A stretch of DNA of 64,000 nt from Gemmatimonadota bacterium (GTDB taxonomy: Bacteria; Latescibacterota; UBA2968; UBA8231), in the NCBI GenBank assembly GCA_018660835.1, contig JABJJN010000059.1, forward strand, positions 1 to 64,000, given 5' to 3'. A model generated the notes under the pieces. It did not search any database. It worked only from the letters and a program-made list of their open reading frames with translations, and was not told where the DNA came from. Numbering within the stretch: position 1 is the stretch's first letter; each line of letters starts with the position of its first letter. Below, in pieces: positions 2,786-63,999 of the stretch. The translations under genes and the position numbers were made by a program.

Positions 2786-3613
2786 ATGACCTGGGATCCG
2801 ATCGAAGCAGACTCCATCGATGCCATCCGCAATCGCGACGCCGATCCATTGCGCACGCTCGCCCGGGGCGACACACCAGCGATCATTCTGCGTGGCGCCT
2901 ATGGCGCCACGGACTGCGCCGGCCTCGTTGCACGATTTCTCGAGCGCGAGCTCATGCGTGACCCGACATTGCCTGCACAGGAAGGCGATCGCCGACGCAT
3001 TGATATCGGCACAAGCCTCGGGAATCGCGGCGCTGACCAGGAGGACTTCCTCGAGCACGCCGAAACGACCCGCGCCTTGTTTGGCCATCTCTTCGCGGGA
3101 TTGGCGGATCCTGTCGAGTTCATCTACGGCGCGCTGCAACAGCTGGCCGGTGATGGACAGCAGGTGCTCACGGCCCGGGAACCGGATGGGCGCGAATACG
3201 GCCCAGCGATCTTCCGGATTCATTATGATGGTCACGCATATCCGCCGCACATCGATCACGTGACCCTGCGAGAAAAACGGTTTAACTACGCCGTATCTCG
3301 CTTTGAGCATCAATTTGCCGGGATACTATGCGTGCAGAATGCCGTGAGCACCGGTGCCACACAGGGCGTGCTGCATCACTGCCTGTGGACGGAGCAGATT
3401 CAGCCACACATTCGCGCCCATACCTTCCATGAATACGCTCAGGAGCAGGGCATCGACCGCTGTCAGGTCGACCTGCAGGCTGGGGATCTCTACTTCTTCA
3501 ATACGCGACATATACACGAGGTACCGGCTGTCGAAGGTGATGACCCGCGGATCGTACTCGCCATTTTCATCGGCTACAACGAAGGTGACTCTGACATCTT
3601 CGTCTGGGCCTGA
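2786..3613 (+). CDS. 2OG-Fe(II) oxygenase family protein
   Basis: Double-stranded beta-helix oxygenase of 275 residues. The metal triad is suggested by H-x-D in PPHIDHVTL and the later histidines in NTRHIHEVPAV, followed by an arginine on the next strand (DDPRIVLAIFIGY). The frame is open upstream to 2651, but those 45 codons are an Ala/Arg/Ser-rich run without homologous character, so the ATG at MTWDPIEADS was taken. Head-to-head with the PhyH gene, leaving about 175 bp for divergent promoters. Substrate unknown; peptide or small-molecule hydroxylation are both possible. Confidence 0.82.
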   Translation: MTWDPIEADSIDAIRNRDADPLRTLARGDTPAIILRGAYGATDCAGLVARFLERELMRDPTLPAQEGDRRRIDIGTSLGNRGADQEDFLEHAETTRALFGHLFAGLADPVEFIYGALQQLAGDGQQVLTAREPDGREYGPAIFRIHYDGHAYPPHIDHVTLREKRFNYAVSRFEHQFAGILCVQNAVSTGATQGVLHHCLWTEQIQPHIRAHTFHEYAQEQGIDRCQVDLQAGDLYFFNTRHIHEVPAVEGDDPRIVLAIFIGYNEGDSDIFVWA

Positions 3614-48251: not shown

Positions 48252-48275
48252 GCATACACCTGACTCACCATAATG
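48252..48275 (+). repeat. Direct repeat, right copy
   Basis: GCATACACCTGACTCACCATAATG; see 44477-44500. Similarity to the left copy continues weakly for about 25 bp. Confidence 0.8.
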
Positions 48276-48326
48276 ACGCCCTATCGTGCCTATCCACCGG
48301 CGTGCGCAAAAATGAGAGAATTCGTC

Positions 48327-50501
48327 ATGCAGCCCCAATCGATCCATGATCTGGCGCCAGTCGATCTGCCACCACACCCCCGTGTGTTCGTCACTGAAGA
48401 AAACTTGCAGCGGTGTCGTTCACTGACCAAGGAAGCCGTCTGGGCCGAAGCCGCATTGAGCCGCCTGCTAAGAGCGGCGGATGCGCCCTGTGAATGGGAC
48501 GCCTCTGAGTCAGCCCCCGTGCGCCCCGATCATGGGCTGAAGATGCTGAACCACGCCTTCCGCCAGATCCTCTCCTTCCATCTTACGGGCCGAGGCGCGT
48601 ACCGCGATTCGGCTCTCGCCGCATTCAGGCGAGTCACACAGGCCTATCTGCGCTGGCCTCTCGTGAACGACCACACGCGTGGCGCCGCTTATGGACTGGG
48701 TGAATCCAGGTTTACCATTGCCCTCGCCCGAGTCTACGATCTGCTCGCGTGTGACGACCTCGCTGATGCCGACGGCGAGCTATTTCTGCAAGCCCTGGCC
48801 CTCACTCAAGAGACGACGGACCGGTGCCAACACACGACCTGCGGCAATCACAACACCTGGAACCTCGTTGCTCGCCTTGCGGTAGGCCTGGCCAGCGGCG
48901 ACACCGGTCTCGTACGCGATGCCCTCGACGGCTGGACGTTCAACAGCGTCGCCCGCTACGGTCTCATACACCAGCTCCGACATGACATCCTGTCGGACGG
49001 GCTACACTGGGAACGCACGCCCGGATACCATTTCTATACCTTGATGGCGCTTACGAGTGCCGCCACGATGCTGGCCAACGCTGGCGTCGACATCTGGCAC
49101 GCCGAGTTGCCCGCCCAGATGAGCGATGACGGACGCGACTTGCATCGGGCGTACGGGCCAGCAGGAAGCAAGTGTCTGCAGGCTGCTTTCGACGCCCCAT
49201 TCTACGCGACGCTGGGTAATGGTGACTTCAGCCTGCTCCACGACTCAGGACTGTCGAACTTGCGGGGTGTGTGGATATGGGGCCCGCTCTACGAGCTTGC
49301 GTACCAGACTTATGGCGATCCGAAATACGCGTGGCTCCTGGCCCGGATCGAGCGAGAATACGCGGACCGGCCCGAGCGGCAGTATCCGCACCTACCCATG
49401 TCACTGCAGTCCCCGGCAGGGGAGTGGGATTTTGTCTTGTTGAGAGATGCCGAGCATCCGTCGGGGCATTTCTCCCTTGCCGAGGACTGCAGCATCTCCC
49501 TGGCAGGCGTCCACCGCCAGGGCTGCACGCTATTTCCCGTGACGGGTGTGTCGATCCTGAGAAGTCGGCCAGAGGAGGAAGCCAGCACCGCCGTGCAGAT
49601 GTTCTGGGGGCCGCACAGCGCCGGGCATCAGAGCCCTGCAGCCCTGTGCGTCGACCTGCAGGCCAATGGCCACTGCCTGAGTGCGTCCCCACAATCGGCC
49701 GGTTACGAGGATCCGCTGCACCATACCTGGGTGCGCTCGACGATCGCCCACAACACGGTGACCGTGGATGGGCGACCGATGATCCCCTACGATGTGGAGG
49801 TCGATTCGGTCTGGAAAACAGACGGGGCACGAAGCCTGGAGTCCGATGGCATCCTGGAGCTGTTCCAGCCGGAAGGCCCTTTCAAAGCCTGTCGAGCCTC
49901 GAATGAGACCGTGTACCCGGGGATACGGCTGGACCGAACACTGGTTCTTGCCGACGGCTTTGTCCTGGACCTGTTTCGGGTCATCGGATCAGGCCCGCAC
50001 CGCTACGACTACGCCATGCACATTTTGGGGACGCCGACTGCACCGACGCAGAGTCAGGAGAGTCAGGGCGGAGAGTTCTTCCGGGACGTCGGGTATTCTC
50101 ACCTGGAAAATGTGAGAACGATCAAGGCGCCGACGGGCACCACGAACCTCGCCTGGGAAACGGCGTCCGGTCCCTTGCGCGCCGTGGTGCAAGCCGGTGA
50201 GGGCTCCGAGTTCATACTCGCCGATGATCCGGTTTCAGAAAAAGCACAGACCCTGGGCGCACTGGAGCCTCTTCCCCGTCCGAGTGCGCTCATTGTTCGG
50301 TCCAGAGGCGACCAGGCGATGTTTATGTCGCTGTGGAGTACCCAGGGCCATGACCTGGACATGACGATCGAAGACGGCCGTGCCGATGGGGATGTCGCGG
50401 TGAAGACGCGGATCGGATCACAGATTGAGCGATGGCATCTGCCGGGGACGGCAGAGGAGGTGACCCGCGAGCAGCTTTCGGATCGTGTCGAGCAGGCCTG
50501 A
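48327..50501 (+). CDS. Heparinase II/III-like polysaccharide lyase
   Basis: 724 residues from MQPQSIHDLA; an in-frame ATG lies at 48273. An N-terminal alpha/alpha-toroid alginate-lyase-like domain (VFVTEENLQRCRSL..., TTCGNHNTWNLVARLAVG, LHWERTPGYHFYTLMALTS) is followed by a beta-sandwich Hepar_II_III domain (STIAHNTVTVDGRPMIPYD...). Degrades acidic polysaccharide; substrate not readable. No signal peptide at this start. Convergent with the sigma54 regulator gene (14 nt gap). Confidence 0.88.
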   Translation: MQPQSIHDLAPVDLPPHPRVFVTEENLQRCRSLTKEAVWAEAALSRLLRAADAPCEWDASESAPVRPDHGLKMLNHAFRQILSFHLTGRGAYRDSALAAFRRVTQAYLRWPLVNDHTRGAAYGLGESRFTIALARVYDLLACDDLADADGELFLQALALTQETTDRCQHTTCGNHNTWNLVARLAVGLASGDTGLVRDALDGWTFNSVARYGLIHQLRHDILSDGLHWERTPGYHFYTLMALTSAATMLANAGVDIWHAELPAQMSDDGRDLHRAYGPAGSKCLQAAFDAPFYATLGNGDFSLLHDSGLSNLRGVWIWGPLYELAYQTYGDPKYAWLLARIEREYADRPERQYPHLPMSLQSPAGEWDFVLLRDAEHPSGHFSLAEDCSISLAGVHRQGCTLFPVTGVSILRSRPEEEASTAVQMFWGPHSAGHQSPAALCVDLQANGHCLSASPQSAGYEDPLHHTWVRSTIAHNTVTVDGRPMIPYDVEVDSVWKTDGARSLESDGILELFQPEGPFKACRASNETVYPGIRLDRTLVLADGFVLDLFRVIGSGPHRYDYAMHILGTPTAPTQSQESQGGEFFRDVGYSHLENVRTIKAPTGTTNLAWETASGPLRAVVQAGEGSEFILADDPVSEKAQTLGALEPLPRPSALIVRSRGDQAMFMSLWSTQGHDLDMTIEDGRADGDVAVKTRIGSQIERWHLPGTAEEVTREQLSDRVEQA

Positions 50502-50515
50502 GCGGGAAAGGTGCC

Positions 50516-52102
50516 TCAAGACGTCGGCCGCTCCCCGTCCTGCGCGAGCTTCCGATACACCTTGTTGCGGTCGATGCCGAGAAGCCTCGCAGCCTTTGAC
50601 ACGTTGCCCTCCGCAAGATCGACGGCGCGACGAACGAGAATCGCTTCCGCTTCGCCGAGATTCAGAGGCAGATTCTCAAGACCAGCCCCCGCGTCGGATT
50701 CTCGTGTATCGCCGGACTCGATGACCGCCGTCTCCTGTCGAAACTGCAGGTGCTCCGTCTGAATGGGCCCGCTGTCGCACAGGATCATTGCACGTTCGAT
50801 GATATTGCGCAGTTCGCGCACATTGCCAGGAAACTCGTAGCTCTGCAGACGTTCCATGGCATCCGGCGCGATGACGGGTGCAGCTATCTTCATTTGCGCC
50901 GCGCACTGCTCCAGCATGTGCTGCGACAACAAAGGGATGTCCTCTCGCCGTTGACGCAGCGGCGGCAGCTCGACGGTAAAACGGGCAAGACGATAGTACA
51001 GATCTTCGCGAAACCGGCCCTCGCGCAGAGCCGCCGATAAATCGACGTGGGTCGCTGCGATCACACGCACATCGACGACCAACGATTCGGTTGCGCCGAT
51101 GGGTGTCACGACCCCGTCCTCCAGCACGCGCAACAGCTTGCTTTGCAGATCAGCCGGCATGTCACCGATCTCATCGAGGAACAGCGTTCCCCCATGGGCC
51201 AGCTCGAAGTAACCGACCTGATCACGCTCGGCGCCGGTGAAGGCGCCCTTGCGGTGACCGAAGAACACGGACTCTGCCAGTTCACGGGGCACAGTGGCGC
51301 AGTTAACCGCCACGAAGGTTTCGTCACAGCGCCCCGAACGCGCGTGCACGGCCCGTGCGATCAACTCCTTGCCTGTGCCACTCTCGCCGGTGATGAGCAC
51401 GGAGGTGCCATCCGCTGACTGCAACAGATCGAGTTCTCGCAGAACTTTCTGCAGTGTCGGACTGCGGCCGATGAAACCATCGATCCCCCAGCGCTCCGCC
51501 TCTTCGTGGGCCAGGTGCGACAGGCGTTGGGTCAGCTGCCGACGGCGACCCACCTCCTCCTGCAGTTGCGCGTTGACGCGTTCCATCTGCTGTGCGCTCT
51601 GCTGCAGCTGTTCATGGGCTCGCTCCAGGCTGAGCCCGCTTTCGGCCAGCTCTTGCAGCTTTTCTGTTAGCCGTCGTGCCAGAAGGGCACGTTCCAGGTG
51701 AGTCTGAATTCTGGCCAGTACTTCTTCCTTGCGGAAAGGCTTCACGACGTAGTCGATGCCGCCTGCCTGGAACCCTTCCACGACGGCGACAGTTTCGTCA
51801 TTGGCCGTGAGGAAGACGACGGGAATTTCGCGCATCTGCTCATCTGCCTGCAGTCGACGGCAGGTCTCATACCCGTCGATCCCAGGCATCATGACATCCA
51901 GCAAGATGAGGTCGGGAGCAGATCCGCCGGCAATCTCGAGAGCGGTGAGACCATCACCGGCGACCATCACCCGATAGCCGGCATCCTCGAGGGCCTGGCA
52001 CAATACGGTCAGATTGGCTGGCGTATCGTCGACGACGAGAATCCGTGCGCCCCGTACGTCCAGATCGATCTCAGCTGTTTTCATGAGGCATTTCGTAGCC
52101 AT
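50516..52102 (-). CDS. Sigma54-dependent response regulator (NtrC family)
   Basis: 528 residues. Receiver domain (about 15-135) with phospho-Asp in [15 protein letters not shown]; a coiled coil (about 140-195, [22 protein letters not shown]); AAA+ domain (about 205-440) with [10 protein letters not shown] (Walker A), [10 protein letters not shown] (sigma54 contact) and [13 protein letters not shown]-terminal Fis-type HTH ([20 protein letters not shown]). It starts with an ATG overlapping the stop of the hybrid kinase by one nt (TGATG), so the two are cognate partners. GAFTGA intact, so it should activate sigma54 promoters. Confidence 0.95.
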
Positions 52103-55100
52103 CAGGCCATGTGCTCGAGGACGGTGCGGATGCCGGCCATGTCGAGTCGATCCGTGAGGGCGCGCAGGTGTTCGGCCACACGCCGGGCATCATCCGACAA
52201 CTCGGCCAGCTCATCGAGGGCTTCCTTGATTTCAGTAACAGAATTCCACCGTACCGCTTCCTGCAGTCGTTCGTAGAGTGCCTCGGGCAACGCCACCGCG
52301 GGAAGGTCATCGGGTAGTGATTCTACCGGATTCTGATGTACCAAAGTTACATCCAGCAGATCGACGAGACACTCGCACAGATCCTGTCGCCGGAAGGGCT
52401 TGCCAATAAAGGCATCAAATCCCGCCGTGAGATACTCCTGACGCTCGTGCGACAGCACGGATGCTGAAACGGCGACAAAGCGCATCGACTGACGCCCATG
52501 CTCTTCAATCAGCCGTTGCATGCCCTGAATCCCGCTGATGCCCGGAAGTCGAATATCCATGAAGACAATATCGGGTTTGCTACTGCGCACGAGATCGATC
52601 CCCGCCTCCGCACTGTCACCTGTCTCCACATTCACGCCGAGGGCGCTAAGCAACTGTGATAGAACCTGGCGATTCGCCTCAACGTCATCGATGACGAGTG
52701 CCTGTACATGCTGACCCGGCGTCAGTCCGGTGATAGATGCGGCGTCAGTAGAAAAGCCTGGGCTCTGAACTGCGGGTTCCGCTGCCTGCAGGGGCACGAC
52801 GAAGTAGAATGTGGACCCTTCACCGACCCTCGATGTCAGCTGTAGCTGACCACCCATGAGGGATACATGGCGGGAAGCAATCGCCAGCCCCAAGCCGGTG
52901 CCACCACGGCCATCAACCTCGCCTGCCTGCTCGAAAGGTTCGAAGATCGCCGCCTGTTGCTCGGCATCGATTCCGGGACCTGTGTCGCTGATGGCGAATC
53001 GATACTGACCGGCGTCAATCTGCTGTAGCGACATCCCGACTTCGCCTGATGTACAGAACTTCGTTGCATTTGCGAGCAGATTGATCAGCACCTGACGCAG
53101 CTTGTTGGCGTCGCCGCGCACCCAGGCAGGCCCATCGATCAGATCAGCGCGCCACGACAGTCCCTGCTGCCGACAGCGCATCTCAAACATGGACGCGACA
53201 CCACATGCCAGCTGATGCAGATCAAAATCCTCCGGCGCCAGCTCGACACGGTCTGCCTCGATTTTTGACAGATCGAGCACGTCGTTGATCAGTGCCAGCA
53301 GATGATCACCGCTGGAGTGAATCGTGTCGACCGCCTGACGTTGAGTTGGCTTGAGCCCACGGTCACCGGAAAGCACCTGCGCGAAACCGAGAATCGCGTT
53401 CAGCGGCGTGCGGATTTCGTGACTCATGTTGGCGAGGAAACTCGACTTGGCACGGTTCGCACGTTCCGCCTCTCGTCGAGCGATCACCAGATCTCGATTG
53501 CTCTGTTCCAGGTGCAGGCGCGCCTCCTGTTCCCCCTGTAGCAGCTGTTCGCGCAGACGCGTCTCCTGCGCATGCTGCCTCCACGTACGAACGCCGAGCC
53601 CGACCGTCGTCAGCAAGAGCAACCCCATCGTCGTCCACAGGGGCACGACAATCCAGGCATTCTGCACCCACGGTAAGACAGCGCTGATCCGCATACTGGC
53701 GGGTTCCGAGTAGTTGAGATCTCGATCGATGGCCTGCACTTCGAAGGTGTACTCGCCAGGTTCCTCGGGACTCCAATCGAAGCGATTGTCCCCCGTCGGC
53801 ACGCGCCAGTGGGCATCGACCTCACGGACCCGGTAGCGGTACTGCCGTTTCTCCGGCGGCGTGCTGAACTCCACTGCACGGAACTCGATGCTGATCCGTG
53901 TACCCACTTCCAGTTGCGCCGGCCCTGCCCCCTGGGTGATGGCATCCGTACGCTGCGAGATGATCCGAACACCCGGTCGATGCCTGTCCGGCAGGTACCG
54001 GACCAGCCCTTTCTCGGTCCCGATCCAGAGATTTCCCTGGCCATCGAACCTCAGATCCAGGATCCTGTTGGAGGGCAGACCATCCTGGGTATCGAGGGAA
54101 CTCCAGGTCTGACGATCGAAGATCGCAACGCCGCCCCGGTCCGTGGCGGCGTAAAGCCGCCCATCACGGATCTCGATAGCACGGACATAGTCATTCGCCA
54201 GACCATCCCGGTGGTCGTAGTGCGCGGTGCCGTCGGCTCGATACAGATACAACCCCGCACCCGCTGTCCCACACCAGATCCCGCCACCGGCGGCCTCTGC
54301 CAGAACAGCTACCGGCTCAGGTGTGGCCAGGACCCTTTCCACCCTCTCACCGGTCCAGTGAAACAGACCCTCTGTGCTCCCAGCCCACAGTCCTGAGGAA
54401 GTGGAGAGCACGGTCCGAAAGGATCGGTCAGATACCTGTTCGAGGTTCGTGCCATCATGGCGGAAGAGTCCGGACTGTGCCGCCAGCCACAGGGTGCCAT
54501 CGTCTTCGGTCGCCAGCGCCAGGATCTGCTCATTCCATTGTCCGGGTATCGGAAACGTCATTCCATCGAATCCGAAGGTTCCCGACCTGCCGACGATGAA
54601 GAATGTATCCTGCAGACCGGGCCAGATGGAGGAAACGGCACCTGGCACGAGTTCCCTTAGTCGGCGGGTTTGCGCCGCTGGCGAAATTTTTTCGCCATCC
54701 CAGAACTCAAGACCGGCATCGGTTCCCAGCCACAGTCCTGATGAGGCAGAGTCGCTTTCCTCGACGGGATGGATCGCGTGCACCACACCTGAACGGAGAC
54801 CGTGGGCCTCAGTGATCACCTGCAGCGCCTCAGGGCGATGGGCCATCACGCCCCCCTCCGAAGCGAACCACAGCGTTCCATCTTCCGCTTCCAGCATGCC
54901 ATGCGTACCACCCGAGATATGGTCCTGCAGGTGGTCGTAGAGCACGACTTGCGAGTCGGTCACTGCCCAGATGCCTACATCAGCACTGAACCAGGTGGTG
55001 CCACTGTTTGCCGTATGGATGTCGTACACTGCATGGCGGACTTCCGGATACAGGTGTGCTCGCCCCGCCTCGAACCGCCACATGCCTTGTCGAGACCCCA

Positions 55101-56925
55101 ACCACTTGCTGCCATCGGCATTCTGCTGGAAGGCAAAGACGAACCGGTGTGGGAAACCAGGCAGTCGCTGACGCTTCAGACCCGTTCGCGTCAGCGCCCA
55201 CACACCGGACGTACTCAGCATCCACAGGGAGTCATCGGCTCCGGGCTCGAAGGCGAAGCCCCCTTCAATGTGATCGTTGAAGGTTGTGATTCGCCCCTGG
55301 TCCATGAGCGCCACACCACCCGCCGTTGCCAACCACAAACCCCCATCGGCGTTGGCACGGATGGCACCGACACTGTTATCCGGCAACCCGTCATCTGTCG
55401 TGTAGATTCGGAAGCTCTGCAACTGTGGGTCGTGTCGTACAAGACCCTTCGGTGTGCCGATCCATACGACACCGTCAGGTCTGTCGATTACGGCATCCAC
55501 ACCTGCATCGAACGTTCCAGCCCCATCGTCGATACGTTCATACACTTCGCCATCGAAGACGGACAATCCGAGTCGGGAAGGCAACCACAATCGACCATCC
55601 TCCGACTGCATGATACGATGCGGTGAGCTCGCCCCGGCGAAGTGGTACGGCGCCGGATAGGACTGCCAGGTCCCCGCCTTCATGGGGACCGAGTGAATGT
55701 CGATATCCGACGTGATCCCCGTGTCGACCTCCACGACGGAGCCGGTCTCACCGGAGCCGTGGTAGGCCCACCCTCCCGGACGCTGCGTGCGGACGCGGTA
55801 CGACCCCTGTCGCAGGTTCGCCAGCCGGTACTCACCCGAACGGTCCGTCCAGACGTTGCGCAGCGTATCTGCCACGCCCGTTGCATGGGCGGGTACCAAC
55901 TGCACGCGGGCGCGCACCCGCGGCCTGCCATCGAGGTTCAGTACCCGCCCCGCAATCCCCGCGACAGGGCCCATCGTCAGGTCCACTGACTGGCGCGTCC
56001 CCGGGCTCAGGCTTAGATCCGGCCGCCAACTTCCCCGATCGGACAGACTCGCCGACAAGTCCCCCGCCTCTGCCGCGAACAAGGCGATGCCGTACCAACC
56101 ACCTTCAACGGAGCGCGTCCCAAGATCATCGCCGTCTTCGGGATGAAAACGGACGGGCACCGCGGATCGTCCCAGACCGTCAGCGCCGCGAACAACCCCT
56201 GACAACACGGAGGGCGCCTCGCCTTGCGGAAAGTCGACAGATCTGACGTGAGCGTCCCCGATGAAGGTCCCGTGAAATCGGGAGCTGGACAGATCGCGAG
56301 CGCTGCTGTCGTCAAAGTTCCAGTAGCCGACGAGATGTTCTTCATCACCCACAAGGGGCCGTATGGTCGCAGCACGGATCTGCGACGGTGTGCGTTCCAC
56401 CGACCAGACTCTCACTTCATCGAGCCATCCCTGGAAATCCAGATTCTCCGCCCAGGGCGAGCGCCCCAGGGCGAAGTGCGCCGAGTCGCCATGAGTGCTG
56501 AAGCTGTTGGCATCCGGGTGTTCAGCTACCAACATCCCATTGAGGTAGAGTTTCATGCCGCCGGGTCCCGACACGGCGGCCATGTGGCACCAACGATCTC
56601 TGGGCAGATCGGTCGTCACCTGGGCGACCTTTGGCCGATAGTCGACGTAATTGAAGAACTTGAAGGTGGGGTCGGCGATGTTGTGGTTGATGCCCATGCC
56701 GAGCCACTCCTCACCGTAGGTGAACCACTGCGAGTAGAGCCCGTATTCCTCCCAGCGCACCCACGCCTCGATCGTTGCCTGGTCGAGGGCCGACAGTGCA
56801 CCGCGCGGCAGATCTACGAAGTCACCATCGCCATCCAGATAGAGAGCACGGTTTTGATCGGCGCCCGCAGGCGAACCGGAGGCGAACCACAAGGCGACCA
56901 GTATGAGTGAGAGGAATTGTTTCAC
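52102..56925 (-). CDS. Hybrid two-component sensor: LamG-like/propeller periplasmic sensor, histidine kinase, receiver
   Basis: 1607 residues from GTG 56925 (VKQFLSLILVALWFASGSPA signal peptide); the frame is open 135 nt upstream. Order: LamG-like lectin fold (about 25-210), carboxypeptidase-regulatory-like Ig repeats (about 245-420), a two-component-regulator beta-propeller (about 430-1000), Y_Y_Y-like domain (about 1015-1080), one TM helix (about 1086-1112), HisKA with MSHEIRTPLNA (His about 1167), HATPase (GDANKLRQVLINLLANATKF), and a receiver with VFMDIRLPG (Asp about 1456). The C-terminal 75-residue helical tail looks like an HPt but has no clear H-x-L-K-G motif. Senses an extracytoplasmic ligand. 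Confidence 0.93.
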   Translation of the reverse strand: MKQFLSLILVALWFASGSPAGADQNRALYLDGDGDFVDLPRGALSALDQATIEAWVRWEEYGLYSQWFTYGEEWLGMGINHNIADPTFKFFNYVDYRPKVAQVTTDLPRDRWCHMAAVSGPGGMKLYLNGMLVAEHPDANSFSTHGDSAHFALGRSPWAENLDFQGWLDEVRVWSVERTPSQIRAATIRPLVGDEEHLVGYWNFDDSSARDLSSSRFHGTFIGDAHVRSVDFPQGEAPSVLSGVVRGADGLGRSAVPVRFHPEDGDDLGTRSVEGGWYGIALFAAEAGDLSASLSDRGSWRPDLSLSPGTRQSVDLTMGPVAGIAGRVLNLDGRPRVRARVQLVPAHATGVADTLRNVWTDRSGEYRLANLRQGSYRVRTQRPGGWAYHGSGETGSVVEVDTGITSDIDIHSVPMKAGTWQSYPAPYHFAGASSPHRIMQSEDGRLWLPSRLGLSVFDGEVYERIDDGAGTFDAGVDAVIDRPDGVVWIGTPKGLVRHDPQLQSFRIYTTDDGLPDNSVGAIRANADGGLWLATAGGVALMDQGRITTFNDHIEGGFAFEPGADDSLWMLSTSGVWALTRTGLKRQRLPGFPHRFVFAFQQNADGSKWLGSRQGMWRFEAGRAHLYPEVRHAVYDIHTANSGTTWFSADVGIWAVTDSQVVLYDHLQDHISGGTHGMLEAEDGTLWFASEGGVMAHRPEALQVITEAHGLRSGVVHAIHPVEESDSASSGLWLGTDAGLEFWDGEKISPAAQTRRLRELVPGAVSSIWPGLQDTFFIVGRSGTFGFDGMTFPIPGQWNEQILALATEDDGTLWLAAQSGLFRHDGTNLEQVSDRSFRTVLSTSSGLWAGSTEGLFHWTGERVERVLATPEPVAVLAEAAGGGIWCGTAGAGLYLYRADGTAHYDHRDGLANDYVRAIEIRDGRLYAATDRGGVAIFDRQTWSSLDTQDGLPSNRILDLRFDGQGNLWIGTEKGLVRYLPDRHRPGVRIISQRTDAITQGAGPAQLEVGTRISIEFRAVEFSTPPEKRQYRYRVREVDAHWRVPTGDNRFDWSPEEPGEYTFEVQAIDRDLNYSEPASMRISAVLPWVQNAWIVVPLWTTMGLLLLTTVGLGVRTWRQHAQETRLREQLLQGEQEARLHLEQSNRDLVIARREAERANRAKSSFLANMSHEIRTPLNAILGFAQVLSGDRGLKPTQRQAVDTIHSSGDHLLALINDVLDLSKIEADRVELAPEDFDLHQLACGVASMFEMRCRQQGLSWRADLIDGPAWVRGDANKLRQVLINLLANATKFCTSGEVGMSLQQIDAGQYRFAISDTGPGIDAEQQAAIFEPFEQAGEVDGRGGTGLGLAIASRHVSLMGGQLQLTSRVGEGSTFYFVVPLQAAEPAVQSPGFSTDAASITGLTPGQHVQALVIDDVEANRQVLSQLLSALGVNVETGDSAEAGIDLVRSSKPDIVFMDIRLPGISGIQGMQRLIEEHGRQSMRFVAVSASVLSHERQEYLTAGFDAFIGKPFRRQDLCECLVDLLDVTLVHQNPVESLPDDLPAVALPEALYERLQEAVRWNSVTEIKEALDELAELSDDARRVAEHLRALTDRLDMAGIRTVLEHMA

Positions 56926-56983
56926 GCCGGAACAATAGACCTTGCACTCGAGCACGGCGACCTGGGAATCTGTCCCCAGGCGC

Positions 56984-59347
56984 TCAGGCGGCCGCCGCGG
57001 TCTCAGAGACCGTATCCACCACACAATCACCGCCGGCGCGCTTGGCCTGCAGCAGAGCATGGTTCAGCGATTGCAGAGCGCCTTGACCGACGTCGCGTAG
57101 ATCACCCGTCGCCAAACTATCCAGAGACGCTACGGCCGCGCTCAGGGTCAGCTTGATCTGTGCTTCAGCGCAGTCAAAGTTCGATCCGGAGATTGACAGG
57201 CGCAGTTCACCGGCTCGCTGCCGCGCCTGTTGCAGATTGGCCGGGAACAGCACCACCGCGAAGTATGTGCCATCCAGGTGTGCGAGCAGTTCTTCCCCGT
57301 GTAGCACCTGTTGCAGTCGCTGCGCGAGTTGTCGCAACACAGCATCCCCCACGTCGCGACCGTGAGTCTCGTTAATGGGACCGAAGTTGTCGCCAGACAG
57401 TAGCAGCAGACCCACGGGTTCCTGGCGACGCCGCGCCTGCTGGATCTGGTCCGGCAGCAACGCTTGCAGCAGGGACATCTTGTTCGGCAAACCCGTGAGC
57501 CTGTCGGTTCCTGCCAGCTGCGCCCAGCGCTGATTGATGCCTTGCAGTCGTTCGATCTCCCTCTCCAACGCGTCCTGATGCTCACCAGTTGGTGTGCTAC
57601 CTGCGGCAACATCACCAACGATCGCATTCTGCGTCAGCTCGAGGGAGTACTCCTGCCACATGTCATAGTACGTCCCCTTGTGATTGAGCAGGTCCTTGTG
57701 ACTGCCTTGCTCGATCAGACGCCCCTCTTCCATCACCAGGATGCGATCCACGTTGACCGCACTCGATAGCCGATGTGTTACCGAGATAAGCGTTCGCGTA
57801 CCTGCCAGCCTGTCCAGCGTGCCATTTACAGCCGCTTCGGTGCGCGGATCCAGAGCCGACGTGGCCTCGTCCAGAATGAGAATGCGTGGCTCCCGCAAAA
57901 GCGCCCGGGCCAGCGCGATCCGTTGGCGCTGGCCACCGGACAAGGGCGTGCCGCCTTCGCCTACACTCGTGTCGTAGCCATCGACAAGGTCCTCGATGAC
58001 ATCGTGCACTTCCGCCAGGCGAGCGGCGTGTTCTACCTGGACGTCGGTGGCCTCCAGTCTCCCCTGCCGAATGTTCTCGCGCACGGACATGTCGAAGAGG
58101 CAGGTGTCCTGGAAGACCGGTGCCATCTGTGCCCGCAGGGATTGTCGAGACCGTTGCTGCAGGTCACAGCCATCTATCGTGATCCGTCCGGCGTCGGCGC
58201 GGTAGAACCCTGCGAGCAGATTGAGAATCGTGCTCTTGCCAGATCCCGACCGACCAACGAAGGCGACGGATTCTCCCGCGTCGATGCAGAAGCTCACATC
58301 CTGCAGATTCGGCTTGTCGCCATCGTAGCTGAAACCGACGTGCTCGAAGCAAATCCGCTGGTTGAACGGTGCCAGTTGCGGCAGGTCGGCTCTGGCGGCT
58401 TCGTCCTCGCTCTCGTCGAGCAATTCGTCAATGCGTCGCAGGCCGACAGTGGCTTGCACCAGATCCGGGAACAGTGCCGTCAGTTGCGTCGTTGCATCAC
58501 CCACGTTGAGCAGCAGTCCGATAAAGCCGATCAGCATGCCTGCCGACAGAAAACCTTCCAGCGCCAGGAAGGCACCGACGCCGATCACGAGAAGCTGTAC
58601 GAGCAGCACACCCAGGTTGGAGGTCTTGCCGGCGAAAGAACTGAACAGCGTCGCCCACACGCTGCTGTAGTAGAGGCGGCCGATATGCTCGTGGAAGCGG
58701 CCCACCATCGCCGCCTGCAGGCCAAAGGCCTGGACGATGCGCTGGCCGCGGATGCTCTGGTGGACAAGACCGGACAGGTCTGCCTCCTGCTCTTTCTTCT
58801 GCTGGCCCGCGCGCACCGCCCGTCCACCGAAGATCTCCGGCCCCAGAGCGGCAATGGGCAACGCCACGAGAGTCACACACGCCAGGCGCCACTCGACAAA
58901 GAACAGCACGACGACGCTGGACAAGCCGAGTAGAGCAAAGAGCAGCGCCTGATACAGCGAGTTGCTCACGGCACGATCAACGGCATTCAGATCGTTGGAG
59001 AAACGCGACAGCAGATCGCCCGTCGCCGTGCGCGCGAAGAACCCATCCGACAGTCCCTGCAACCGCTGAAACATGGCGAGCCGCAGGTCGTTGACGATGG
59101 CCGACCCGAGGGATGCCGCCAGATAGCCCAACACAAGATCCGCGATGGTGACAGCGACGAAGCCGAAAGCCAGGGCGCCCAGCAGTTGCCACAGGAAGAC
59201 GCTGTCCTTGTCGGCAATCCCTCGATCAAAAATCTGCTGGTAAGCCAGGGGCAATACCAGATAGTAGCCGACCTGCACACCGACCGTGAGCACTGCGAGT
59301 AAACACTTGCCGCGGTAGGGCCACAGCATCTGTGCCAGTCTGTTCAT
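56984..59347 (-). CDS. ABC exporter fused to a degenerate GGDEF domain
   Basis: 787 residues from the ATG at MNRLAQMLWPYRGK, whose ATGA overlaps the stop of the upstream gene. ABC transmembrane domain with about six helices (1-310), then an NBD (about 330-570): Walker A GRSGSGKST, signature LSGGQRQR, Walker B ILILDEATSALD, H-loop VTHRLSS. The C-terminal 170 residues (about 615-787) form a GGDEF fold (TDRLTGLPNKMSLLQALLP, GRDVGDAVLRQLAQRLQQVL) but the active motif reads LDGTYFAVVL instead of GGDEF, so diguanylate cyclase activity is unlikely. Homodimeric exporter with a built-in regulatory or nucleotide-sensing tail. Confidence 0.93.
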   Translation of the reverse strand: MNRLAQMLWPYRGKCLLAVLTVGVQVGYYLVLPLAYQQIFDRGIADKDSVFLWQLLGALAFGFVAVTIADLVLGYLAASLGSAIVNDLRLAMFQRLQGLSDGFFARTATGDLLSRFSNDLNAVDRAVSNSLYQALLFALLGLSSVVVLFFVEWRLACVTLVALPIAALGPEIFGGRAVRAGQQKKEQEADLSGLVHQSIRGQRIVQAFGLQAAMVGRFHEHIGRLYYSSVWATLFSSFAGKTSNLGVLLVQLLVIGVGAFLALEGFLSAGMLIGFIGLLLNVGDATTQLTALFPDLVQATVGLRRIDELLDESEDEAARADLPQLAPFNQRICFEHVGFSYDGDKPNLQDVSFCIDAGESVAFVGRSGSGKSTILNLLAGFYRADAGRITIDGCDLQQRSRQSLRAQMAPVFQDTCLFDMSVRENIRQGRLEATDVQVEHAARLAEVHDVIEDLVDGYDTSVGEGGTPLSGGQRQRIALARALLREPRILILDEATSALDPRTEAAVNGTLDRLAGTRTLISVTHRLSSAVNVDRILVMEEGRLIEQGSHKDLLNHKGTYYDMWQEYSLELTQNAIVGDVAAGSTPTGEHQDALEREIERLQGINQRWAQLAGTDRLTGLPNKMSLLQALLPDQIQQARRRQEPVGLLLLSGDNFGPINETHGRDVGDAVLRQLAQRLQQVLHGEELLAHLDGTYFAVVLFPANLQQARQRAGELRLSISGSNFDCAEAQIKLTLSAAVASLDSLATGDLRDVGQGALQSLNHALLQAKRAGGDCVVDTVSETAAAA

Positions 59348-60900
59348 GCGACGCACGTACCAGGCGTCACGTGACGCCGGATCGCGGCCAATCCCCGCAG
59401 CGCCGCTTCGATGTGGGCCTGGGTATTGTCTGCCGTTACCGAGAAGCGCAGACCTCCCGCGTCGATGGGCAGCGCCGGGTAAGCTGCCGGTGTGACCAGC
59501 AGCCCGTGATCCCACGCGATCTGACATGCCTGCACGACCGCTTCAGGATGTCCGATCTCGACGAACAGCACGGGATAGTCGGTCGGATTGTCCACGGGGA
59601 AGCCGAGTTCCATGGCGCCTGCGACGAGACGGGTTGTCAGGCGATGCAGACCGGCACGGATCTGCTCGCCTTCGGCGACGTTCACCTGCAGTCCCTTCAA
59701 CCCACTAGCCAGGGTCGCCACCGGCACGGGTCCGGAGAAGATGTAGGTCGAGGCGCCCCAGCGAAGCTCTTCTTCCATGGCTGCATCGAAACAGGTGACG
59801 AAGGCCGCATGGGAGGAATAGGCTTTCGACAGACCGCTGACGTAGACGATCCGGTCCGCCGCGTAGTCGAGACCGAAGTGACACACGATGCCATTGCCCC
59901 GGTGCCCATACGGCATGTCCGGCGACGGATCCTCCCCGATAATGCCGAAGCCATGCGCGTCGTCGACGTAGATCATGGCGTCGTGTTTCCGGGCAATCTC
60001 GACGTACGCAGGCATGTCCAAATATCGCGCCGACATGGAGTACACACCGTCGACAACGATCACCTTGCGAGAACACCCTTGGTGCTGAGTCAGCTGCGCG
60101 TCCAGATCGTCCAGGTCACCATGTCGGAAGCGGGCATGTGTCGCCCCACGCGCCGCCGCCAGTTCGCAGGCCTCGTGCAGTGTGCGGTGGGCAGCCTGGT
60201 CGGCCAGCACCAGCCCCCCGGATCCCGCCAGCAGGGGCAGCACACCCAGGTGCAGCATGGCGATACTCGGAAAGACCACCGTGGAGTGCGACCCGAGCAG
60301 ATCGGCCAACCCTTCCTCAAGTTCGAAATAGGGTTCGGGTGAAGCGACGGCGCGCGTCCAGCTGGGATGCACACCCCACGTTTCCACCATGGGTTGGATG
60401 GCGGCGATGATTTCGGGATGCAGGTCAAAACCCAGGTAGTTGCAGGAAGCGAAGTCGATGATCGTTCTGCCATCGATGGTCAGATCGCGGCCGTGCTGCG
60501 CGGTGACACAACGCTGCAGCTGCGGAATCTGCCTCATCATCTGCTCTAAAGGATTCCTCGGCGTCTCCCCTGACTTCGTGTTGTGCGCCGCCCTCGTGTT
60601 AGGCGCCGCCTCCATGCCTTGTGTCGATTCGCGGTCACGTGGCTGCCGGTGAACCATGGCGACCAATTGTGTCAGTGTCGGCATCTGCGCCATCCCATCC
60701 ACAGGCAGCTGCACCGCGAAGGCATCCTCAAGTGTTGCCTGCAGGCGAAACAGTTGCAGAGAGTCGATGCCCAATTCATCAAGGGGTTGATCGAGCGCCA
60801 CCTGATCAAAGGGCAGATCGAGCAACGCACCCACCTCCTGGCGAATTCGTGTCTCTACTTGTGACGACGCTGTGTTACTGCTGGCCGTGTGTTGGCTCAT
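59344..60900 (-). CDS. Acyl-carrier-protein-fused alpha-oxoamine synthase
   Basis: 518 residues. N-terminal ACP (about 10-85) with phosphopantetheine serine in ELGIDSLQLFRL; then a PLP-dependent alpha-oxoamine synthase (about 110-515), like 8-amino-7-oxononanoate synthase and serine palmitoyltransferase. PLP lysine in YVSGLSKAYSSHAAF, with IYVDDAHGFGIIGED before it. Joins an acyl thioester to an amino acid with loss of CO2 to make an alpha-aminoketone. The fused ACP suggests loading by the neighbouring acyl-AMP ligase. ATGA overlap with both neighbours. Confidence 0.93.
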   Translation of the reverse strand: MSQHTASSNTASSQVETRIRQEVGALLDLPFDQVALDQPLDELGIDSLQLFRLQATLEDAFAVQLPVDGMAQMPTLTQLVAMVHRQPRDRESTQGMEAAPNTRAAHNTKSGETPRNPLEQMMRQIPQLQRCVTAQHGRDLTIDGRTIIDFASCNYLGFDLHPEIIAAIQPMVETWGVHPSWTRAVASPEPYFELEEGLADLLGSHSTVVFPSIAMLHLGVLPLLAGSGGLVLADQAAHRTLHEACELAAARGATHARFRHGDLDDLDAQLTQHQGCSRKVIVVDGVYSMSARYLDMPAYVEIARKHDAMIYVDDAHGFGIIGEDPSPDMPYGHRGNGIVCHFGLDYAADRIVYVSGLSKAYSSHAAFVTCFDAAMEEELRWGASTYIFSGPVPVATLASGLKGLQVNVAEGEQIRAGLHRLTTRLVAGAMELGFPVDNPTDYPVLFVEIGHPEAVVQACQIAWDHGLLVTPAAYPALPIDAGGLRFSVTADNTQAHIEAALRGLAAIRRHVTPGTCVA

Positions 60901-62720
60901 GCTGCACGCTCCACCAACTCAGGAGTTTCCGTAGTCGACCCACACTGCGTGTCTGCAGTCGACCACTGCGTTTCTGCAGTCGACCACTGCGTTTCTGCAG
61001 TCGACCACTGCGTTCCTGCAGTCGACCACTGCGCGACCGATCGCAGCGTCCCCGCATGGTATTCCTCCCGACACTGTCTGCGGCGGACCTTGCCACTTGA
61101 CGTCTTCGGCAATCTACCGGGGCGCAACAGCACCAGGGCAGCCAACTCCAGCCCGTGCGTTCGAGACACAGCGCGACGCGCCGCCCGGACCACGGTGTCG
61201 AGATCGAATTCGCCCACGAAGCGACGCCGGATCTCGTGCACGACGACGAGTTTTTCTGTGCCCTGCTCGGTGATGGTAAAGGCCGCCCCGCTGTGCAGCG
61301 GCAACACGTCGTGGCTGGCCCCAACAGTTTGCTCAATGTCCTGTGGGTAGTGATTGGCACCACGCACGACGATGAGATCCTTGATTCGACCCGTCACATA
61401 CAAGTCGCCGTCGCGCAGCAGACCAAGATCACCCGTGCGCAACCAGGGTCCCGAATCCTCATGGCGAATCCGCGCCGCGAAGATCTCCTGTGTCGCCTCG
61501 GTTTGCCCCCAGTAACCCGCAGCCACCGAACGTCCCCGGACCCATATCTCGCCGATGCCACCCGTGCCGACGCGACACTGCGTCACCGCATCGACGATGG
61601 CCACCTCTACACCCGTCGCGACGTGGCCGCAGCTGACCACTCGACGCGGGTCAGCACCTGGCATGTCGATATCGGCGACCTCGGTGGTGCCCCCCGTCGC
61701 TCCACTCACCATCAATGTTGCCTCCGCCAGACCATACATCGGTGTGATCGCAGAGGCCGACAGTCCGCATTCTGCAAAGGTGGAACAGAAGCGCTCCAGC
61801 GTATCGTGCAACACAGGCTCGGCGCCATTGCCGACGATACGCAGGCAGCTCAAGTCGAGATCGACACGCTGTGCCTCGCTCACCGCATCCACACAGAGAT
61901 CGTAGGCGAAATTTGGCGCCACGATGAGCTCCGCCTGGTAGTCGGCGGCCGCTTGTAGCCAACGCATCGGGCGTTTGAGAAAAGCCGTGGGTGCCATCAG
62001 TACACACAGGGAGCCACAGAACAACACCTGCAATAGGCAGCCAATGAGCCCCATGTCATGGAACACCGGCAACCAGCTGACAATGATGGAGGACTCCGTC
62101 ATCCCCAGAGTCTGCTGAATGGAGCGCTCGTTGTGCATGATGTTGTCGTGGGTCACCATGACACCCTTGGGCTCTGCTGTGGAACCGGAGGTGTATTGCA
62201 GGAAAGCCAGGTCATCTCCCAGAATGTTCGGCGCACGCCACACACCCAACATGACGTCAGCCTCTTCGGCTGACATGACATCCGTCGCAAGAACCTGCAG
62301 GTCGCTGGACTGCCCGTCAGTGATCCATGTCTCGATTCGGTCTCGTGTCGATTCGGTCGTCAGAATCAACGCCGCCCCGGCATCATGGACGATGGTTTCG
62401 ATGCGGTCCATGTGCTGCTGATTGCGCGGTGGATAGGCGGGTACGGCGACGGCACCAGCGTAGAGACAACCGAAGAAGGCGCTGACGAAGTCCAGCCCCG
62501 ATGGATACAACAGCAGCACACGGTCGCCCGGACTGCAGCGACTTTGTAACTGCACCGCAATCGTGCGTGCCCGTGCATCGAGCTGCGACAGGGTCAGCGA
62601 ATCCGACTCGCGGCCGCTGTCGGCGAGAAAGCGATACTGTACCCGGTCCGGATCTGCCTGGGCCTTCTGCCGCAGAAGATCTACGAGATTTGCTGCCACA
62701 GGTGTTTCCGAACCACCCAT
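60897..62720 (-). CDS. Fatty acyl-AMP ligase (FAAL) with heptapeptide-repeat tail
   Basis: 607 residues. Adenylation enzyme: LQYTSGSTAEPKGVMVTHDN (AMP-binding), VSWLPVFHDMGLIG (the FAAL-typical HDMGL), PMYGLAEATLMVSG and the C-terminal GRIKDLIVVRGANHYPQDIE. FAALs load fatty acids onto ACPs rather than CoA, fitting the ACP-synthase next to it. The C-terminal tail contains about four QWSTAET heptapeptides (21-bp repeats at about 60955-61040). The ATG follows the methyltransferase stop with no gap (TAGATG); the stop overlaps the ACP-synthase start by 4 nt. Confidence 0.94.
   Translation of the reverse strand: MGGSETPVAANLVDLLRQKAQADPDRVQYRFLADSGRESDSLTLSQLDARARTIAVQLQSRCSPGDRVLLLYPSGLDFVSAFFGCLYAGAVAVPAYPPRNQQHMDRIETIVHDAGAALILTTESTRDRIETWITDGQSSDLQVLATDVMSAEEADVMLGVWRAPNILGDDLAFLQYTSGSTAEPKGVMVTHDNIMHNERSIQQTLGMTESSIIVSWLPVFHDMGLIGCLLQVLFCGSLCVLMAPTAFLKRPMRWLQAAADYQAELIVAPNFAYDLCVDAVSEAQRVDLDLSCLRIVGNGAEPVLHDTLERFCSTFAECGLSASAITPMYGLAEATLMVSGATGGTTEVADIDMPGADPRRVVSCGHVATGVEVAIVDAVTQCRVGTGGIGEIWVRGRSVAAGYWGQTEATQEIFAARIRHEDSGPWLRTGDLGLLRDGDLYVTGRIKDLIVVRGANHYPQDIEQTVGASHDVLPLHSGAAFTITEQGTEKLVVVHEIRRRFVGEFDLDTVVRAARRAVSRTHGLELAALVLLRPGRLPKTSSGKVRRRQCREEYHAGTLRSVAQWSTAGTQWSTAETQWSTAETQWSTADTQCGSTTETPELVERAA
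60950..61038 (-). repeat. 21-bp tandem repeats in the FAAL 3' end
   Basis: CAGTCGACCACTGCG recurs four times with a 21-bp period (GTCGACCACTGCGTTTCTGCA unit), each coding for QWSTAET-like heptads. No spacers, so not CRISPR. Confidence 0.9.
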
Positions 62721-63572
62721 CTAGGCATTCTCCGGGCGCGTAGCCGTGACATAGACGAAGTCATAGAGGTCAAGATCCGCGATGATCTGCTGGGTCCGAA
62801 TGAGGTATTGAAATTGCTCCGATTCGGCGTCCGTGAGTCGATCAGCCATCATCTCCCCCAGCACATCCATCTTTGTTGTCAGATACTGGGCAAAGGGCTT
62901 GAACACCTGGGAGCCCACAGACTCTACCTGGACACGGAGATAGCCGACCTCAGCCAGATCTGCAGAGAAGTCATTGGCCAGATATTTCGGTTGCGGAATC
63001 TGCCAGAATTCTGAGTGAACCTGCTCGCACTCCATCTCCAGCTCCGTCACCGGCAAACGCGTCAGGCAGATCTCGCCCAACACCAGGCGGCCCCCCGGTC
63101 GCAGAACGCGGAACGCTTCCTCGTAAAAAGCCATCCGGGATGGAAACTGCTCCACCGTGTACAGAGCCAGCACGCGATCCAGATCCGTAGGAATCTGCTC
63201 GGGCAGGTCCGTGGCATCCGCAACGACGTACTCAATGGCATCGGCAAGGCCCGCCTGCTCGGCATTGGCTTGGGCGGCGGCGATATGATCCAGTTGCAGA
63301 TCGACACCGATCATCCTGCCCGGACGGCAGCGCGAGATACATACCGGTTCCAGCGCCCCGAGTCCGCACCCCACGTTCAGTACCGAGGATCCAGCCTGGA
63401 TATCGGCATGATCCAGCAAGGCCTCCCAAGCTCGGCGAGGGGGCGGCGTGCGCTCCACCTCGTCCCAGAGACCGTAGTTCAGGTATCCGGGTTCGCCACC
63501 GGGCAGCAGCGTGCCCAGATCCCGCGTCATGTCGTAGAGATTCTGAAGTTGCTCCGGAGATGCCGTTGACAT
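62721..63572 (-). CDS. SAM-dependent methyltransferase
   Basis: 283 residues from the ATG at MSTASPEQLQ (weak AGG at 7 nt); ATG 63614 and GTG 63632 are alternatives. Class I fold: SSVLNVGCGLGALEPV (SAM loop), MIGVDLQLDHIAAAQ (acidic loop), VVADATDLPE, and post-motif RVLRPGGRLVLGEI. Similar in outline to UbiE/cyclopropane-type methyltransferases with a C-terminal lid. First gene of the FAAL/oxoamine synthase operon, so likely tailors the acyl-derived product (O-, N- or C-methylation). Confidence 0.9.
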   Translation of the reverse strand: MSTASPEQLQNLYDMTRDLGTLLPGGEPGYLNYGLWDEVERTPPPRRAWEALLDHADIQAGSSVLNVGCGLGALEPVCISRCRPGRMIGVDLQLDHIAAAQANAEQAGLADAIEYVVADATDLPEQIPTDLDRVLALYTVEQFPSRMAFYEEAFRVLRPGGRLVLGEICLTRLPVTELEMECEQVHSEFWQIPQPKYLANDFSADLAEVGYLRVQVESVGSQVFKPFAQYLTTKMDVLGEMMADRLTDAESEQFQYLIRTQQIIADLDLYDFVYVTATRPENA

Positions 63573-63650
63573 CAAAGACCTGCCGTGTTGGGATGATCGA
63601 TTGGCTGTTGCCATCCCACCATTGCGAATCACATGCCCGTGATTCTTCCC

Positions 63651-63668
63651 TGCAGGTTGTTACCCGGA
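63651..63668 (-). promoter_or_regulatory. Candidate sigma54 (-24/-12) promoter for the FAAL operon
   Basis: On the minus strand CCGGGTAACAACCTGCA gives GG (63665-63664), exactly 10 nt, then GC (63653-63652), the invariant spacing of sigma54 promoters. Flanking consensus (TGGCAC ... TTGC) is weak. Predicted +1 near 63640. The same block encodes a sigma54 activator. Confidence 0.5.
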
Positions 63669-63669
63669 T

Positions 63670-63726
63670 TGCTCATATGTGAGCACTTGTCCGTCAATGA
63701 GCACAATTGTGCTCATATTCGAGCAC
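63670..63726. promoter_or_regulatory. Cluster of TGAGCAC dyads, probable operator/UAS
   Basis: Contains TGCTCA-TATG-TGAGCA (63670-63685), a 20-bp perfect palindrome ATGAGCACAATTGTGCTCAT (63697-63716) and GTGCTC-ATATTC-GAGCAC (63709-63726). Five half sites of one motif within 57 bp. Lies directly upstream of the candidate promoter and would suit binding of the NtrC-type regulator encoded in the same block, or another dimeric factor. Confidence 0.75.
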
Positions 63727-63804: not shown

Positions 63805-63999
63805 CTAATTGAGTAGGTCGGGGAGTTTTAGATAAACCAGACAAGAGATATTGAGAACACTCAAAATGACTTCAGAAACAAATCCTTGAACCGTCGCCTT
63901 GGCGGGTCTCCCATCAAGAAACATGCTTGCCAGTCTACCCATAGCAAATCCCAGGTAGATGACGATGGCTACAGTGAATGAAGTAATTCTAAAAGCAGG
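63805..63999 (-). CDS. Partial DUF4345-like membrane protein, C-terminal 64 residues
   Basis: An open minus-strand frame from the window edge to TAG at 63805. Encodes FRITSFTVAIVIYLGFAMGR then LASMFLDGRPAKATVQGFV and a C-terminal hydrophobic helix. The YLGFAMGRL...DGRP core matches DUF4345 family membrane proteins. The 5' end is outside the window. Lower GC than the neighbouring operon. Confidence 0.7.
   Translation of the reverse strand, partial: PAFRITSFTVAIVIYLGFAMGRLASMFLDGRPAKATVQGFVSEVILSVLNISCLVYLKLPDLLN

Follow-up and report, generated by a model that had tools for sequence, protein, structure and literature searches.

The aminoketone operon

The window analysed in this study, a stretch of 64,000 nucleotides, carries on its minus strand a tight run of six genes, from 63572 to 50516. 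A cluster of inverted repeats lies in the gap between this operon and the upstream co-directional gene, a DoxX-like membrane protein (named by eye) with its stop at 63805. The genes of the operon and its neighbour on the other side are:

62721-63572, minus: SAM-dependent methyltransferase, first gene (Pfam Methyltransf_31/11/25); longest frame from GTG 63632
60897-62720, minus: fatty acyl-AMP ligase-like AMP-binding enzyme (Pfam AMP-binding, AMP-dom_DIP2-like)
59344-60900, minus: fusion of an ACP with an alpha-oxoamine synthase-type PLP enzyme, the aminoketone step (Pfam PP-binding, Aminotran_1_2)
56984-59527, minus: ABC exporter with a C-terminal GGDEF domain (Pfam ABC_membrane, ABC_tran, GGDEF); likely start ATG 59347
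52102-57060, minus: hybrid sensor histidine kinase (Pfam LamG, Reg_prop, Y_Y_Y, HisKA, HATPase_c, receiver)
50516-52102, minus: response regulator of the enhancer-binding protein (EBP) type, last gene (Pfam Response_reg, Sigma54_activat, HTH_8, all over cut-off)
48273-50501, next to the operon: heparinase/alginate-lyase-like gene (Pfam)

A sequence-only reading of this region had noted that the operon encodes a GAFTGA-containing activator. This is borne out by the Pfam domains of the last gene, which combines a receiver, a sigma54 AAA+ domain and a Fis-type HTH, and by the GAFTGA that can be read in its sequence. The best solved relatives of the ACP-oxoamine synthase are serine palmitoyltransferase (SPT) and KBL. 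The fusion of an ABC exporter with GGDEF (56984-59527, minus strand) is, to our knowledge, unusual, and might link export with cyclic-di-GMP.

None of 386 sampled genomes yielded an ortholog of the operon, and in the same sample the ACP-oxoamine synthase had no relative above ~31% identity. A pattern search for the synthase gave no match in genome contigs, and on plasmids there were only distant AOS-fold matches. A literature search on operons with an oxoamine synthase and an acyl-AMP ligase returned nothing useful. The aminoketone operon may be rare or acquired. For want of an ortholog in the sampled genomes, a comparison of its promoter between species gave no footprint.

The dyad array and the predicted promoter

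The five TGAGCAC half sites described in the sequence-only reading were recovered as three exact copies (63680, 63698 and 63709) and two with one mismatch (63669 and 63720). These five sites in 65 bp are the best TGAGCAC cluster of the window, and in 150 first-order Markov simulations of the window five sites with three exact never appeared, the best exact count being 2. The 20-bp perfect palindrome of that reading is also there, as the sole perfect palindrome of at least 18 bp in the window; 0.1 perfect palindromes of 20 bp per window are expected from simulation. The repeats are real and go beyond chance. On the operon strand, the cluster appears as tandem 16-bp dyads of the form TGCTC-N6-GAGCA, two of them perfect and 40 bp apart with a degenerate one in between (0/22/40 bp):

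63709-63726, minus: distal dyad GTGCTC-GAATAT-GAGCAC, predicted EBP site; core TGCTCGAATATGAGCA at 63725-63710, centre at about -105
63688-63703, minus: middle dyad TGCTC-ATTGAC-GGACA, TGCTCATTGACGGACA; degenerate, with one good arm, 22 bp on from TGCTCGAATATGAGCA
63669-63686, minus: proximal dyad GTGCTC-ACATAT-GAGCAA, predicted EBP site; perfect core TGCTCACATATGAGCA at 63685-63670, 40 bp on, centre at about -65
63697-63716, no strand: 20-bp perfect palindrome ATGAGCACAATTGTGCTCAT, interpreted as the place where the middle and distal dyads meet

The functional unit would be the TGCTC-N6-GAGCA dyad rather than the palindrome, because it is the 5-N6-5 dyad, and not an inverted N4 unit, that the arrays of related EBPs conserve. 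The palindrome was therefore set aside as a binding unit.

The close pair of dyads is specific to the aminoketone operon within the 7.09-Mb assembly. GTGCTC-N6-GAGCAC occurs there exactly once, as the distal dyad, and with one mismatch at 38 sites, against 36 for a reversed-pattern control. The shorter TGCTC-N6-GAGCA has 27 exact sites (14 for the control), of which only the two in the operon promoter region form a close pair. All nine of the other sites that we examined lie in open frames of at least 150 codons and have no second exact dyad. A spread of the dyad across the genome upstream of unrelated genes, which would have pointed to another regulon, was thus not seen. With 93% completeness and 8% contamination, the assembly may lack a few targets. 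Two candidate sites were discarded: a dyad on contig C92 (L054) with a sigma54-like site nearby, which is inside an apparent nucleotide-kinase gene, and a site on C4 (L051/L181), which has a weak array score but lies in open frames. As a separate observation, two adjacent large proteins on contig C7 (~70.0-74.7 kb; L050 10038-14714) presumably resemble the FapA/DUF342 family.

Three further elements lie between the array and the first gene or at its edge:

63653-63668, minus: GG-N10-GC element CGGGTAACAACCTGCA, rejected as promoter
63623-63638, minus: predicted sigma54 promoter GGGCATGTGATTCGCA (-24/-12), predicted start near 63612
63570-63584, minus: probable ribosome-binding site GGCAGG and ATG 63572-63570 (MSTASPEQL...), as judged from the sequence

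We scored the window with an approximate sigma54 matrix built around the published consensus TGGCACG-N4-TTGCW (PMC7910581). By this approximation, GGGCATGTGATTCGCA reaches 11.9 bits and ranks 10 among ~128,000 window positions. It fits 9 of 12 consensus positions and has both the GG at -24 and the GC at -12; its departures are a G in place of the T before GG and a C in place of the second T of TTGC. The promoter proposed earlier, CGGGTAACAACCTGCA, does contain the GG-N10-GC element, but its score of 3.9 bits falls short of 5 bits, a value exceeded at 295 window positions, and only 2 bp separate its GG from the proximal dyad. GGGCATGTGATTCGCA is the better candidate and the earlier choice was probably wrong; likewise, the start expected near 63640 gives way to one predicted at ~63612. 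Relative to the latter, the repeated dyads lie upstream at about -65 to -106, with 32 bp between the nearest dyad and the -24 GG. Nor did we find support for the remark that the sites are closer to the promoter than classical enhancers, since positions of ~-65 and ~-105 are within the range reported for EBP sites. A typical EBP site is 80-150 bp upstream of the -24/-12 region (PMC7910581), and in Desulfovibrio vulgaris the biggest fraction of sigma54 promoters is found within 100 nt of the closest EBP site (PMC4641369).

The same assembly encodes rpoN (PF04552 match, E 1.3e-62). Scanning of the region found neither a sigma70-like promoter nor a terminator, and an Rfam scan of it found no RNA family. 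GGGCATGTGATTCGCA overlaps the GTG (63632) that opens the longest frame of the first gene, and therefore translation would begin at ATG 63572; GGCAGG is 7-12 nt upstream of this ATG, and both are downstream of the predicted start. Elsewhere in the window, two strong sigma54-consensus matches, TGGCACGGGTGTTGCA and TGGCGCGTGAGTTGCA, are found at 20667 and 20758 on the minus strand, ~90 bp apart. They are apparently intragenic and probably due to chance; the one at 20667, the strongest match of the window, was rejected as it has no adjoining dyad array and apparently sits inside a gene.

Dyad arms and recognition helices in related activators

The nearest relatives of the EBP share 51-59% identity with it, come from the same family, class and phylum, and are often adjoined by a similar hybrid kinase. 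In an alignment of the HTH, only two other EBPs had nearly the same recognition helix (DRNK[IV]YR), namely those of G017:C98 (L079/L097), from the window's family, and G009:C550 (L080/L098; helix LLGVDRNKIYRKL). A scan of related genomes for the dyad, a check suggested by the sequence-only reading, placed arrays beside these two. In both L097 and L098, three tandem TGCTC-N6-GAGCA-type dyads, spaced 0/19/38 and 0/20/40, lie just downstream of the EBP gene and precede a neighbouring gene for a probable secreted protein; strong sigma54-like promoters, TGGCACAGTCCTTGCG and TGGCACTCATCTTGTG, follow 78 bp after the arrays. The same dyad as the distal one of the window, GTGCTC-N6-GAGCAC, stands beside both EBPs. 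When 47 genomes of the class were searched, the best-matching tandem arrays proved to be those of G017:C98 (1 mismatch) and G009:C550 (2), each directly beside its EBP. In a set of 80 EBP-centred loci, 1.2 Mb taken from other genomes, only L097 and L098 had high-scoring arrays. The dyad thus recurs with its cognate EBP in other genomes and is absent at EBPs with other helices. Moreover, ahead of its own kinase-EBP operon L097 has a second tandem array (3563-3600, equal to L079 7918-7954) together with the sigma54-like TGGTACAGCCTTTGCG; this is likely an independent case of autoregulation and a direct precedent for the one proposed here.

Where the helix of a related EBP differs, the 5-N6-5 geometry persists and the arms change (GTGC, GTTC). 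Over six loci in all, DRNK[IV]YR goes with TGCTC arms (three loci), ERTK[IL]YR with [CT]GTGC arms (L081 and L082) and NRTKLYR with [CT]GTTC arms (L085). The dyads are CGTTC-N6-GAACG-like at L085/L115, where TGGCATTCATCTTGCG follows, and TGTGC-N6-GCACA at L082 (ERTKLYR), followed by CGGCACGAGATGTGCT; L081 (ERTKIYR) has CGTGC-type arms and then TGGTACGGAATCTGCT. These other arrays stand ~78-97 bp from their sigma54-like sites. A motif-blind search of 0.42 Mb from these loci looked for 5-N6-5 palindromes occurring in pairs near sigma54-like sites; it returned seven, against none in 1.25 Mb of simulated sequence, and six of the seven pairs sit at four EBPs. Spacers other than 6 gave few matches beyond sub-registers of the same arrays, which favours N6. 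Our strongest argument for assigning the window dyads to the window EBP is that the sites follow the EBP across loci. Close to a different EBP in the window's own genome, we also observed a perfect TCGAC-N6-GTCGA pair that precedes TGGCACAACCCTTGCA, a near-consensus sigma54 promoter (G000:C92, L217 2241-2392).

Probable autoregulation, alternatives and known systems

Sequence comparison brings out the dyads, a better promoter than the one first proposed and a link between dyads and EBP helix. On this basis, it is very probable that the operon's own EBP has its activating sequence in the dyads. We consider it very likely that the region as a whole serves the aminoketone operon as upstream activating sequence and sigma54 promoter, with that EBP driving it in a positive autoregulatory loop. 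The loop follows from the position of the kinase and the EBP as the last two genes of the operon. Autoregulation is the part of the sequence-only reading that stands, with strong support from the relatives carrying nearly the same helix; its promoter, start and enhancer-distance remark found no support. For phosphotransfer, binding and the direction of regulation, we infer the following course, on a single transcript begun at the predicted start. The hybrid kinase would pass phosphate to the EBP, directly or via the kinase's own receiver. EBP dimers would dock on the TGCTC-N6-GAGCA dyads through the Fis-type HTH, and the AAA+ ring would assemble on the array and contact the sigma54 polymerase at GGGCATGTGATTCGCA, leading to promoter opening. 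The consensus departures of GGGCATGTGATTCGCA and the degenerate middle dyad count against this interpretation, as do the failure to find an ortholog of the operon and the small base, six loci, of the helix-arm correlation.

Could the EBP instead act right beside the polymerase, with CGGGTAACAACCTGCA as the promoter and a start near 63641? The bare GG-N10-GC of this element comes with a good TGCA at -12, but we regard such an arrangement as very unlikely given its very low match score, the collision of EBP and polymerase expected from so short a distance, and the promoters elsewhere, which lie 78 bp from the array in the relatives and ~78-97 bp away at other arrays. Palindromes of this size are common to many regulator families, and binding of the EBP is here a prediction, so the dyads might serve another dimeric regulator (e.g. 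of the LuxR or TetR type) while the EBP acts elsewhere. This is quite improbable: matching dyads elsewhere adjoin EBPs whose helix is nearly the same and precede sigma54-like promoters, and different helices pair with different arms.

The shorter gap between array and promoter (32 bp here vs 78 bp in the relatives) also counts against activation by the EBP, and would suit an EBP that mainly represses at this locus, blocking access to the promoter region, and whose activating role lies at other targets in trans. We give this little credence, since the best sigma54 site of the region follows the array at a distance plausible for activation, scanning of the region found no sigma70-like promoter, and no second close dyad pair was found in the genome. 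That the cluster has no regulatory role and arose by chance, or as a structural palindrome such as the terminator of the DoxX-like gene, which is co-directional and to whose 3' side it lies, is extremely improbable. It was not reproduced in simulations, neither a terminator-like signature nor an RNA family was found, and arrays recur across genomes beside cognate EBPs.

If the EBP is made from this promoter only, activation by the EBP requires a source of basal expression, and read-through from the co-directional DoxX-like gene is a possible one. As to the input, a glycan-type signal is plausible for the kinase, in view of its LamG and propeller sensor domains and the heparinase/alginate-lyase-like neighbour (48273-50501). 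In hybrid two-component systems of Bacteroides, a Reg_prop/Y_Y_Y propeller-type sensor is likewise fused to a hybrid kinase; there, an AraC-type DNA-binding domain is fused to the kinase, whereas here a separate sigma54 EBP is encoded. It is also possible, but unsupported, that the kinase senses the aminoketone product. In Vibrio, the CqsA/CqsS-LuxO pathway involves an alpha-oxoamine synthase-type enzyme, a hybrid kinase and a LuxO-like sigma54 EBP, in parallel to this operon. Unlike in Vibrio, a single operon here carries all of these, the synthase comes after an AMP ligase and has an ACP fused to it, and the kinase has LamG/Reg_prop sensor domains; a signal role is only conjectural here. Judged from the domains, the operon appears to have neither a CqsA/LqsA-type synthase nor a CqsS/LqsS-type sensor, given the ACP on the synthase, the LamG/Reg_prop sensor, and SPT and KBL as closest solved relatives. 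Two papers treat the CqsA/CqsS-LuxO pathway as alpha-hydroxyketone quorum sensing (PMC3376566, PMC3285556). In a self-contained circuit, the operon would produce a lipid aminoketone and export it, the LamG/propeller hybrid kinase of the operon would sense this product, and the EBP would amplify the whole operon through the tandem dyads. That would amount to quorum-like positive feedback from parts unlike Cqs/Lqs; we think this unlikely.

This kind of bacterial switch is already known, and the operon would be a further case. NtrC-family EBP systems of the D. vulgaris sigma54 regulome share with it the receiver-AAA+(GAFTGA)-Fis HTH architecture, inverted repeats upstream of -24/-12, an EBP gene that adjoins the target operon or belongs to it, and a small regulon (PMC4641369). 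A yGTCA-N6-TGACr repeat predicted there has the N6 spacer found here (PMC4641369), whereas the arms here are TGCTC/GAGCA and the dyads three in tandem. Similarly, sigma54 and the EBP Nla28 drive biosynthetic operons for natural products in Myxococcus xanthus via tandem sites; there, however, one EBP acts on several clusters in trans, while the EBP considered here is encoded within its operon and no other close dyad pair was found, and the Nla28 half site CT(C/G)CG(C/G)AG is unlike TGCTC/GAGCA (PMC7910581). A literature search on sigma54 in Latescibacteria returned nothing useful.

Our analysis provides a concrete regulator-site pair in a little-studied, mostly uncultured lineage. It also offers a route for assigning EBPs to their sites, through tandem 5-N6-5 dyads adjoining the EBP gene and comparison of recognition helices, and the apparent pairs DRNK/TGCTC, ERTK/GTGC and NRTK/GTTC could be the first entries in a table of specificities for EBPs of this group. 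For the organism itself, the prediction is that an unusual aminoketone pathway would be on only when its own kinase is triggered.
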